DNA from: a bacterium
Lineage (GTDB): Bacteria > Patescibacteria > Microgenomatia > Levybacterales > GWA1-39-11
DNA length: 9,042 bases
Direction of reading: 5' to 3'
NCBI GenBank assembly: GCA_021825285.1
Contig: JAKAHW010000034.1
Location: 1-9,042, forward strand
Under the pieces are notes generated by a model. The model worked only from the letters and a program-made list of their open reading frames with translations. It did not search any database and was not told where the DNA came from. Numbering within the stretch: the stretch's first letter is position 1; each line of letters begins with the position of its first letter. The translations under genes and the position numbers were made by a program. Of the stretch, positions 4,113-6,375 are shown piece by piece.

Positions 4113-4952
4113 CTATTTGGAAGCTTTGGAAATATTAATTCTTACCGAGGGGCTCATTGTAGATTTGAGAACGATTTGGTCAATTTTGCTTGGTCCAATT
4201 GATGAAATAACTGATTTTATATTATCTTCAAGTTGGTTGTCTTCAAATGAGACCTTTCCGACAACTAAATGGATGAGGGGCGCTGCTGACTCCGTTTTGT
4301 AAGAAATTTGACCTTTTGAAAGTTTTTCTGCTAATGCTTCAGGTTTGTCGGTTACAGTTCCCGCTTTTGGATTTGGCATAAGTCCGCGAGGCCCCAATAC
4401 GCGTGCTACCTTTGCTAAGCGAGGCATCATTTGAGGCGTCGCAACAAGAATATCAAAATCTATCTTTCCTTTTTCCACTTCTGCTATTAAGGCGTCATCT
4501 GCTATTCTAATTTTAGTCTCGCGTCCGGTTCCGTGAGGAAGGGCGATTTGTCCGGAAAGTCCTTTTTCTTTGACATTTATATGAAGTTCGACTGTTTCGT
4601 CAAATTTGCTTTTTTTGAATTTTTTAATCATCTCAACACCATTCTTAAGAGGGTAGAAAGTTTTTTTATCAATTTGGCTTTTATTTTCTTTGTGCCTTTT
4701 TGAAAATACTTTTTTCTTTGCAAATTTTGCTTTCTTAGTTTTTTTACCCTCCTCAGGTGCTTGCTCAACCGGGGTTTCGGCCATGATTTCTTCTTCGGAA
4801 GGACCGACGGAGTTAATTCTTTGTCCTCCGCCCATGTTTTTCATGTGAGCTTTTTTTTCAAGACTTTTTTGCTCACGCTTTTCCTTGAGCTTTTTTTGAT
4901 CTTCTTGCTCTTGGTTTTCGTCTCCTAATGTTTTTACTCTAATTTTACCCAC
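4113..4952 (-). CDS. rplA: Ribosomal protein uL1, N-terminally extended and internally shortened (279 aa)
   Basis: uL1 forms the mobile L1 stalk of the large subunit and in many bacteria represses its own L11-L1 operon mRNA. Key signatures are ALPHGTGRETK (137-147), DFDILVATP (165-173), LGPRGLMPNPKAGTV (186-200), GQISYKT (214-220) and KSTMSPS (263-269). The first ~85 residues are an extra Lys/Glu/Gln-rich tail not found in E. coli uL1. Between HGTGR and FDILVA there are about 18 fewer residues than in E. coli, and about six are missing before HGTG, so domain II is reduced. The usual STMGPG motif reads STMSPS. The start is GTG at 4952 with AAGGA ten bases upstream, and rplK ends 21 bases before it. 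Identity is certain; the extension could act in RNA or protein contacts. Confidence 0.95.
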   Translation of the reverse strand: MGKIRVKTLGDENQEQEDQKKLKEKREQKSLEKKAHMKNMGGGQRINSVGPSEEEIMAETPVEQAPEEGKKTKKAKFAKKKVFSKRHKENKSQIDKKTFYPLKNGVEMIKKFKKSKFDETVELHINVKEKGLSGQIALPHGTGRETKIRIADDALIAEVEKGKIDFDILVATPQMMPRLAKVARVLGPRGLMPNPKAGTVTDKPEALAEKLSKGQISYKTESAAPLIHLVVGKVSFEDNQLEDNIKSVISSIGPSKIDQIVLKSTMSPSVRINISKASK

Positions 4953-4973: not shown

Positions 4974-5396
4974 TTACTCGGTTTGAATTCCCATTGAACG
5001 GGCCGCGCCTTTGACAATTTTTGCTGCCTGTTTTACGTCTTTAGTGTTCAAGTCGTCCATTTTTGTTTTTGCGATTTCTTCTGCCTGTGCATCAGTCAAT
5101 TTTCCTGCGACCTCACGTCCCGGTTTTTGTGAAGCTTTTTCAAGTTTCAAAGCCATTTTAATAAGTTCTGCAACCGGCGGTTTTTTGACAATGAAAGAGA
5201 AAGTTCTATCTTCGTAAACCGTGATAACAACAGGCAAGACCGTTCCTTTTTGCTCTCCGGTCTTATCATTGAAAGCTTTTACAAACTCCATGATTGGAAG
5301 GCCGTGTTGTCCCAAAGCAGGACCAACCGGCGGTGCAGGAGTTGCCTCTCCGCCTTTAATGTTTAATTTTATAAGTGTTTTTATTTTTTTAGCCAT
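4974..5396 (-). CDS. rplK: Ribosomal protein uL11 (140 aa)
   Basis: uL11 binds the GTPase-associated region of 23S rRNA at the base of the L7/L12 stalk. The N-terminal domain contains [20 protein letters not shown] (11-30) and IMEFVKAFN (35-43). The C-terminal domain carries [11 protein letters not shown] (91-101) and a conserved end with [13 protein letters not shown] (126-138). Length matches the usual ~141. ATG at 5396 has AAGG only one base upstream, an unusually tight spacing. The 95-base leader contains a repeat of this start region, a nine-codon ORF and a hairpin with a T-run. rplA follows 21 bases downstream. Residues HGLP replace the common QGVN before IMEF, a mild divergence. Confidence 0.97.
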
Positions 5397-5406
5397 ACCT
5401 TAATTT
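5382..5406 (-). repeat. Direct repeat, rplK copy (21/25 identical to 5466-5490)
   Basis: The start region of rplK, from AAATTAAG through codon 5 (ATA), recurs at 5466-5490 with four mismatches. Both copies contain an ATG in the same context. The copies are 84 bases apart and bracket the hairpin with the T-run. Confidence 0.6.
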
Positions 5407-5428
5407 AATTTATAATATTTTTTGGCTG

Positions 5429-5468
5429 AAAAAATATGTTGAGGCTCCATTTATGGAGTTGAACATAT
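5429..5468 (-). terminator. Hairpin plus T6 in the rplK leader (attenuator-like)
   Basis: On the minus strand, ATATGTT (5462-5468) pairs with AACATAT (5434-5440). Inside, CTCCAT (5453-5458) pairs with ATGGAG (5445-5450). An asymmetric internal loop (three against four bases) separates the two stems, and a run of six T (5429-5434) follows. It could terminate the nusG-orf112 transcript, or act as a conditional terminator for rplK-rplA. It is also placed where a uL1 autoregulatory leader would be expected, but I cannot show the uL1-binding fold. Confidence 0.5.
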
Positions 5469-5480
5469 CTTCTTTGCCAT
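5451..5480 (-). CDS. Nine-codon leader ORF, MAKKICSTP, upstream of rplK
   Basis: ATG GCA AAG AAG ATA opens a frame whose first five residues (MAKKI) match the first five of uL11. After TGT TCA ACT CCA it stops at TAA, which lies in the loop of the downstream hairpin. Its start context (AAATTAAGTT before ATG) nearly repeats that of rplK (AAATTAAGGT). Three of the four differences across the 25-base repeat are synonymous changes at third codon positions. A ribosome on this ORF would cover the 5' arms of the hairpin. Whether it is translated is unknown; a tandem duplication without function is the alternative. Confidence 0.4.
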   Translation of the reverse strand: MAKKICSTP

Positions 5481-5490
5481 AACTTAATTT
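5466..5490 (-). repeat. Direct repeat, leader copy of the rplK start region
   Basis: This is the upstream partner of the repeat at 5382-5406. It begins just after the orf112 stop codon and ends exactly where the hairpin stem begins (the ATA codon is shared by repeat and stem). Confidence 0.6.
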
Positions 5491-5491
5491 T

Positions 5492-5830
5492 TTAAAATTC
5501 TGCCTGATTTGTTGCTGCCTGTTGATTCATAGTCCTAACTGTTGCAGCTCTTAGTTCGAGCTGTTTTCTCCAGGTTCCTTCGTTAGTTTCAAAAGCATGA
5601 ACAAGCGCTAATCCTTGTCTATGAGCCAGATATGGGTTTCCTGTTTTGTCCTGTACGTCTTGGAAAAAAGCTCCGTAATTTCTTTCTCCGGGTTCTTGAC
5701 CAAGTAACCCTTGTGCTATATCCATTAGTTCCAAAACAACGTCGTATCCTACGCCCTCAAAAGCCCTGTTTAAATTTTTCTGGGCGGTATCTGCATCCTG
5801 GAATCTTTCAAATGCTTCGAGTCTTCTCAT
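5492..5830 (-). CDS. Hypothetical helical protein inserted between nusG and rplK (112 aa)
   Basis: I do not recognise this protein. It is soluble, rich in Glu, Gln, Ala and Leu, probably mostly helical, with no signal peptide, membrane segment or Cys. Recognisable stretches include LMDIAQGLLGQEPGERNYGA near the middle and a Gln/Ala/Asn-rich C terminus. ATG at 5830 lies five bases after the nusG stop, with no Shine-Dalgarno sequence, so it is most likely cotranscribed with secE-nusG and translated by coupling. In most bacteria nusG is followed directly by rplK, so the position is unusual. A role tied to transcription or ribosome assembly would be guesswork from context. Confidence 0.7.
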   Translation of the reverse strand: MRRLEAFERFQDADTAQKNLNRAFEGVGYDVVLELMDIAQGLLGQEPGERNYGAFFQDVQDKTGNPYLAHRQGLALVHAFETNEGTWRKQLELRAATVRTMNQQAATNQAEF

Positions 5831-5835
5831 AGCAA

Positions 5836-6375
5836 TTAAATTTTTGCGACTTGCAGGAAATCTAATTCAACCGGTGTTTCCCGTCCGAAAATGGAAACCA
5901 AAACTCTGACTTTGCCTTTTGATTCGTCAATTGATTCAATTGTCCCAAGAAAATCCGAGAAAGGGCCGTCTGTAATCTTGACAGCTTCACCCTGTGAGAA
6001 AGCAGCTTTGAAGACAGGCTCTTTCATTTCAACGAATTTTACAATTGCCTCAACTTCATCATCTCTGACCGGAGTCGGTTTGTTTTGCGCCCCTACGAAA
6101 GAAGTGACACCAGGGGTAGTTCGAACAAGTAACCAAGATTCATCATCAAGTCTCATTTTCACAAAAATGTATCCTGCGAAAATCTTTTCTTTTACTGTTT
6201 CTTTTTTGCCGCCTCTAACTTTTACGATTTCTTTTGTAGGCACCAAAACCTCAAGGATTCTTTCGTCGAATCCCATGGATTTGACACGTTGCATCAAGGT
6301 TGTTGCGACCTTATTTTCATGTCCTGAGTATGTGTGGACAATATACCAACGAGCACGATTTTCTTGTAATTCCAT
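5836..6375 (-). CDS. nusG: Transcription termination/antitermination protein NusG (179 aa)
   Basis: NusG binds the RNA polymerase clamp and affects pausing, Rho termination and coupling to the ribosome. The NGN domain spans about residues 8-115, with RWYIVHTYSGHENKV (9-23), VPTKE (45-49), KIFAGYIFVKM (64-74) and VRTTPGVTSFVG (84-95). A linker leads to the C-terminal KOW domain (about 127-179), with GEAVKITDGPFSDFLGTIES and a final SIFGRETPVELDF region. Length matches the family (about 175-180). The ATG has no Shine-Dalgarno sequence, and secE ends 14 bases upstream, consistent with cotranscription. No odd residues are noted beyond FAGY for the common FPGY. Confidence 0.97.
   Translation of the reverse strand: MELQENRARWYIVHTYSGHENKVATTLMQRVKSMGFDERILEVLVPTKEIVKVRGGKKETVKEKIFAGYIFVKMRLDDESWLLVRTTPGVTSFVGAQNKPTPVRDDEVEAIVKFVEMKEPVFKAAFSQGEAVKITDGPFSDFLGTIESIDESKGKVRVLVSIFGRETPVELDFLQVAKI

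Follow-up and report, generated by a model that had tools for sequence, protein, structure and literature searches.

We analysed a stretch of DNA of 9,042 nucleotides (from here on, the window), which comes from a relative of Ca. Levybacteria (best rplK match among genome contigs, 85%). On its minus strand, secE, nusG and orf112 are followed by a leader and then by rplK and rplA. The features of this locus are as follows.

4113..4952, minus strand: rplA (uL1), the gene downstream of rplK
4974..5396, minus strand: rplK (uL11), 140 amino acids
5382..5406, minus strand: real rplK start region, the reference for the direct copy
5423..5436, minus strand: anti-start, a 13/14 inverted copy of the real rplK start (5395-5382), within the 3' arm of the hairpin
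5423..5479, minus strand: hairpin (predicted fold)
5451..5480, minus strand: decoy ORF, ATGGCAAAGAAGATATGTTCAACTCCATAA, encoding MAKKICSTP*
5466..5490, minus strand: direct copy of the rplK start region, 21/25 (25-mer comparison)
5492..5830, minus strand: orf112, an orphan ORF in the nusG/rplK interval
5836..6375, minus strand: nusG

The rplK gene closest to that of the window is found in genome G007 (92% identity), and nusG is likewise 92% identical to its counterpart in G007. Because the two genes are equally close to this genome, they look native and the leader looks new; on the same grounds, we rejected a foreign replacement of the entire rplK gene. The product of orf112 is without a Pfam match, and a word-based search of the protein database returned a self-match only, in a cluster on five contigs. 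Homologues of orf112 were seen in 0 of 5 cases and then in none of 82 genomes of the order, the latter an empty answer that shows little because the search had no positive control. We note that several relatives (L091, L098, L148, and L160) also have long nusG-rplK spacers, apparently with other small ORFs, and that in L093, L094, L098, L102, L120, L126, and L129 a second, diverged nusG 3' end (like ELDFLQV.KL*) seems to follow after a short insert, both as judged by eye.

The rplK leader contains a second rplK start. On the minus strand, 21 of the 25 bases from 5490 to 5466 are identical to those from 5406 to 5382, which was attained by none of 20,000 dinucleotide shuffles of the 95-nt leader, and we conclude that the duplicate is not due to chance. 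The copy, referred to here as the decoy, opens a nine-codon ORF that ends 54 nt upstream of rplK; its stop codon, UAA, falls within the four-nucleotide loop (5453-5450) of a predicted hairpin, and the three differences between decoy and real start within codons 2-4 are all synonymous. In these respects, the original prediction, which described a 25-base near-copy of the rplK start, an ORF MAKKICSTP stopping in a hairpin loop and mostly synonymous differences, was accurate, and its coordinates hold.

The hairpin is predicted to consist of an outer stem UGGC/GCCA (5479-5476 paired with 5426-5423), a 12-bp middle stem (5473-5462 paired with 5440-5429) and a 5-bp inner stem (5458-5454 paired with 5449-5445). 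The predicted fold of the 119-nt stretch has an energy of -22.1 kcal/mol (z = -3.18), and 2 of 200 shuffles were as good. Its 3' arm holds a feature that had been overlooked, namely an inverted copy of the rplK start: the anti-start UAUUUUUUCAGCCA (5436-5423) matches the inverted real start UGGCUAAAAAAAUA (5395-5382) at 13 of 14 bases, a match attained by 8 of 20,000 shuffles, and the inverted identity in 212 decoy-free leaders reaches at most 11/14. The window contains, in other words, three copies of one start, direct (the decoy), inverted (the anti-start) and real, and because the 3' arm carries the inverted real start, it could take either the decoy or the real start as its partner. The six T that were thought to follow the hairpin are located inside it: in the minimum-energy fold, the six U (5434-5429) belong to the 3' arm and are paired with AGAAGA of the decoy. 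Neither the hairpin of the window nor those in the leaders of L158, L017, and L154 were listed by a terminator scan; since the scan takes no stems with internal loops or bulges, and interrupted stems such as these are outside its model, its silence is weak evidence and does not exclude a terminator. An Rfam scan of the window and the leader revealed no family at the gathering score and, below it, weak matches only, none of them to an r-protein leader.

We then looked at relatives. A sample of the family comprised eight genomes, six of them with rplK (92 to 77% identical), and in all six nusG lies directly before rplK, with 24-114 nt of varied filler between them; neither the decoy nor orf112 is present in any of the six. 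In the order to which the window belongs, rplK was obtained from 64 of 82 genomes, with the N-terminus in 62, and 61 of these 62 lack the decoy. The sole exception, G033 (L111/L144), has a decoy-like partial copy (MAAKKIKTIIKLNIKAGEA...) with a stop that overlaps the rplK AUG. Comparison of the 110-nt leader with 281 genomes drawn from the class gave matches of 25-43 bases only, in 10 of them. Further, on a tree of two proteins (NusG and RplK; branch supports were not inspected), decoy carriers are scattered and their sisters are decoy-free. Vertical conservation of the decoy thus fails, and the absence of the ORF, both from the six family members and from the tree sisters of the carriers, is the outcome that had been named as refuting the original prediction. 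Separately, eight leaders of the window's order (L103, L115, L120, L125, L126, L129, L132, and L139) share an element CTGG..ACCAGTAGATAAGA..CTCT.CT upstream of rplK, with 26 invariant columns across hand-cut segments, which is a candidate structured RNA; when five of these eight loci and L011 were scanned against Rfam, only L10_leader was detected, in L011.

Decoy rplK starts nevertheless recur across Microgenomates, in 10 of 222 distinct leaders, with the window counted and one of the ten weak. In intergenic DNA, the regular expression for decoys matched the reverse complement in 1 of 222 cases and the reversed sequence in 0-1 of 222; when the 250-nt upstream stretch was searched in reverse complement, 13 of 222 gave a match, and these matches were traced to nusG antisense and divergent genes. 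A match at -314 in L370, read by eye as rpmG, was left out of the counts. Six decoy-bearing leaders (L154, L158, L161, L162, L170, and L196) are from a second order, that of G004, which contributed 43 usable leaders and whose locus L017, the same place as L161, is named Daviesbacteria. L154 (genome G108) contains three decoys in tandem. A hairpin tip, ATAAGCARAGCTTG, comes after the decoy start and before the real start in L154, L158, L161, L170, and L196; an inverted start between decoy and real start matches at 12-13 of 14 bases in L154, L158, and L161, and at background level in L170 (10/14) and L196 (9/14). In L162, the hairpin tip is a different one, and it is later codons that have an inverted copy. 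In the other orders of the class, 110 leaders were examined. L330 has a weak decoy, MAFKKLN*, and in L343 a 25-codon ORF, MATKKVKSIIRTCAKCAEPCDQFSY*, begins 79 nt upstream of rplK and stops one base before the rplK AUG; we note that its product has a uL11-like start and is then Cys-rich. The direct copy alone, without the inverted copy, is seen in L111/L144, L343, and L330. The full layout of decoy, inverted copy and real start, for which we use the working name rplK start-mimic leader, is clear in the window, L154, L158, and L161, and weaker in L170 and L196. Outside Microgenomates, decoys were found in none of 57 loci; among 50 other Patescibacteria leaders, there were loose matches in L376 and L379 and one 17/25 match in L383, none of which was counted.

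To compare the anatomy of these leaders, we took the best spacer stretch and counted its pairs with each start, of 14 and with G-U allowed. The pairs with real and decoy start, respectively, number 13 and 12 in the window, 14 and 13 in each of L154, L158, and L161, 12 and 10 in L170, 11 and 10 in L196, 10 and 8 in L162, and 9 and 9 in L144, so that seven of eight leaders have an inverted arm with a closer fit to the real start than to the decoy, and one has an arm that fits both equally. In the window, L154, L158, and L161, the anti-start is complementary to both starts. The decoy hairpin is the predicted minimum-energy form despite the presence of the real start in the window, L154, L161, L170, and L196; L158 is the only leader in which the fold flips to pairing of the anti-start with the real start once the latter is included, L162 retains its own hairpin, and L144 is without such a hairpin. 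The decoy ORFs range from 5 to 36 codons, and their relation to the hairpin varies among the recurrences. Their stops are 29-57 nt upstream of the rplK AUG in L196, L170, and L330, and within 10 nt of it or over it in L144 (-1), L154 (2 nt), L158 (1 nt), L161, L162 (-8), and L343 (1 nt). Decoy ORFs that end at most 2 nt from the rplK AUG or overlap it are like the adjacent ORFs known for translational coupling, as outlined in the excerpt of PMC12548453; the window differs from that description, its decoy ORF ending 54 nt upstream. When the codons of nine decoy/real pairs were pooled, 29 of 37 differences were at third positions, and 24 codons differed synonymously and 6 did not. Against a rough expectation of 65%, this bias has a p value of 0.06, or 0.03 without L144, which accounts for 16 of the 37 differences; the ranges compared were chosen by us, before each hairpin tip, and omit L343, L330, and the middle decoy of L154. 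The anticipated bias of substitutions to third positions, taken as a sign that both copies are read as protein, is present, but two copies that each served as a gene start in the past would be expected to show it as well.

The tip ATAAGCARAGCTTG belongs to a 14-base dispersed hairpin repeat, present in 40 of 45 genomes of G004's order in up to 41 copies (reversed-pattern control, 0). It is often followed by a second mini-hairpin and is sometimes in tandem (e.g. L213, L237, and L246). The window hairpin does not have this tip, and we rejected the idea that it is a dispersed repeat of relatives, since its 3' arm occurs just once in the window and the leader matches are short, in 10 of the 281 genomes. 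Of 87 hairpin-repeat sites, only three beyond rplK (in L203 and L208) are, by our reading, at a duplicated gene start, which implies that more than the repeat is needed for such copies to arise. A coding-duplicate test at the 87 sites, on both strands, gave 46 matches, mostly tandem repeats or chance (random controls, 29 of 348), and these were counted only where they could be read as gene starts. In L208 (1476-1600), a decoy, MSGHSRSIISKA*, with the hairpin repeat inside it lies before a gene read as yebC; Ser codons differ between decoy and gene as TCA/AGT and TCC/AGT, and TTGTCGACCA in the spacer is the inverse of TGGTCGACAA in the yebC-like gene. Partial copies of gene 3' ends also occur: in L243 (G108) and L256 (G007), from two orders, that of a gene read as rplL is copied downstream of this gene, and in L198 (G101) part of the rplK C-terminus is copied downstream of rplK. 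Short hairpins dispersed in intergenic DNA have been described as the repetitive or double hairpin elements of mitochondrial genomes (excerpt of PMC2800124). The ATAAGCARAGCTTG repeat of G004's order resembles the elements of that excerpt, and differs from them in being bacterial and combined with a gene-start copy; the hairpin of the window is not this repeat.

A copy of the gene's own start within 150 nt was found for 7 of 103 rplK-like genes vs none of 1,134 other genes (Fisher p = 2e-8), and for 5 of 101 rplK-like genes (p = 3e-6) when the window and the doubtful L264 were left out. This criterion was fixed post hoc, with the decoys already known, and applied to loci not chosen for the hairpin repeat; it misses L170, L196, L330, and L343, the last three being in loci not given to that count. 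By other criteria, a scan of 1,322 ORFs also scored L203 and L208 (yebC by our reading), loci that had been fetched for carrying the hairpin repeat, and L248 (19/25). In G108, with 352 ORFs, a copy of at least 20/25 is present at rplK only, and among the 250 ORFs of G007 no start copy of at least 20/25 was seen. Chance similarity of AT-rich sequence could be entertained because the leader is AT-rich and MAKK starts are common; we rejected it as hardly credible on the shuffles (0 and 8 of 20,000 for the direct and inverted copies), the regular-expression controls (10 of 222 forward vs 1 in reverse complement and 0-1 reversed) and the 1,134 other genes.

This leaves the layout as either a repeated scar of DNA rearrangement or a new sort of translation switch. 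We prefer, with a probability of about 0.5, a recurrent duplication and fold-back scar without evolved regulation. The 5' end of rplK would have been rearranged recently and in this lineage alone, leaving an rplK-start stub (the decoy), then a hairpin with a fold-back copy of the start as its far arm and then the working start, and Microgenomates would have undergone similar rearrangements at rplK repeatedly, in one other order with the dispersed hairpin repeat at the centre. In the RNA, the decoy would pair with the inverted arm and leave the real AUG open, and the decoy AUG may catch some ribosomes, but selection has, we think, not produced any dedicated regulation in this species. We infer this mutational origin from the six family members that have nusG directly before rplK and no decoy, from native-looking genes beside a new leader with short matches only, and from scattered carriers with decoy-free sisters. 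The dispersed ATAAGCARAGCTTG tip in five genomes, the tandem decoys, the other partial gene-end copies and the lack of conservation in decoy ORF lengths and stops argue in the same direction. Against the scar stand the arm's better fit to the real start, the strong third-position bias and the few non-rplK duplicates at repeat sites. The preference for rplK also argues against a general scar process, unless the nusG-rplK junction is a hot spot. No donor or intermediate of the rearrangement was seen.

An evolved switch that works by start mimicry is possible, though we hold it to be doubtful. The anti-start would pair either with the decoy, leaving rplK open, or with the real start, shutting rplK, and ribosomes initiating on the decoy would free the anti-start, so that high initiation capacity would lower rplK-rplA expression; in variants whose decoy ORF reaches the rplK AUG, translation would instead pass ribosomes on by coupling. 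The inverted identities of 12-13/14 in the window, L154, L158, and L161, above those of all 212 decoy-free leaders, are consistent with such a device, as are the larger number of pairs with the real start in seven of eight leaders, the flipping fold of L158, the preference for rplK and the repetition of the layout, the decoy residues kept through synonymous changes, and the decoy stops near or over the rplK AUG in L144, L158, L343, L154, and L162. However, adding the real start does not displace the decoy hairpin from the minimum-energy fold of the window leader, L170 and L196 have inverted identities at background, the distribution is sporadic, and neither vertical descent nor the ORF layout is conserved; an inverted copy that arose later than the decoy would likewise be expected to match the real start more closely. 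In erm-type translational attenuators, a short leader ORF is combined with mutually exclusive pairings able to mask a downstream start. The window leader is like these in its short ORF and candidate alternative pairings and differs in that the start of its ORF is a copy of the regulated start. Transcription attenuators of the pyrBI or trp leader-peptide kind have a short ORF reaching into a hairpin, as here, and the original prediction proposed such translation-dependent attenuation, in which the hairpin would end transcription and translation of the decoy would prevent this. We find this quite unlikely, even though the ORF ends in the hairpin loop, six U are present in the far arm and the terminator scans are blind to internal-loop stems. 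The U tract is buried in an AU-rich stem with an internal loop, there are no runs of a single codon, the ORF is absent in relatives, and the geometry of ORF and hairpin differs among the recurrences; that the scans did not list the hairpin in the window and three recurrences counts little. It seems very unlikely that the leader is an autogenous operator for uL1 (or uL11) that happens to use start-like sequence. It does lie in the leader of rplK-rplA, and the excerpt of PMC10931766 describes uL1 sites of other bacteria in this place, the 5'UTR ahead of rplK; the autogenous uL1 operator of the rplK-rplA (L11) operon is likewise an irregular stem-loop. Yet the known sites in that excerpt mimic the uL1 site of 23S rRNA, whereas the window leader mimics the gene's own start, is not conserved in relatives and gave no Rfam r-protein leader in the leader scan.

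Among the matches listed for open-licence PubMed Central, considered by titles and abstract starts, none concerned duplicated rplK starts or Patescibacteria rplK leaders. Both the scar and the switch are testable. If the layout is a scar, it would point to a rearrangement process to which the start of one ribosomal gene is more prone than other genes are. If it is regulatory, comparative RNA searches would miss leaders of this type, since each is rebuilt from the start of its own gene and no sequence is conserved among them. In its boldest form, which we consider unlikely, Microgenomates would repeatedly evolve a start-mimic switch before rplK, by which the operon senses initiation capacity without a dedicated repressor, and these leaders would be a new class of r-protein leader that lacks a conserved sequence as it is made anew from the gene's own start each time.
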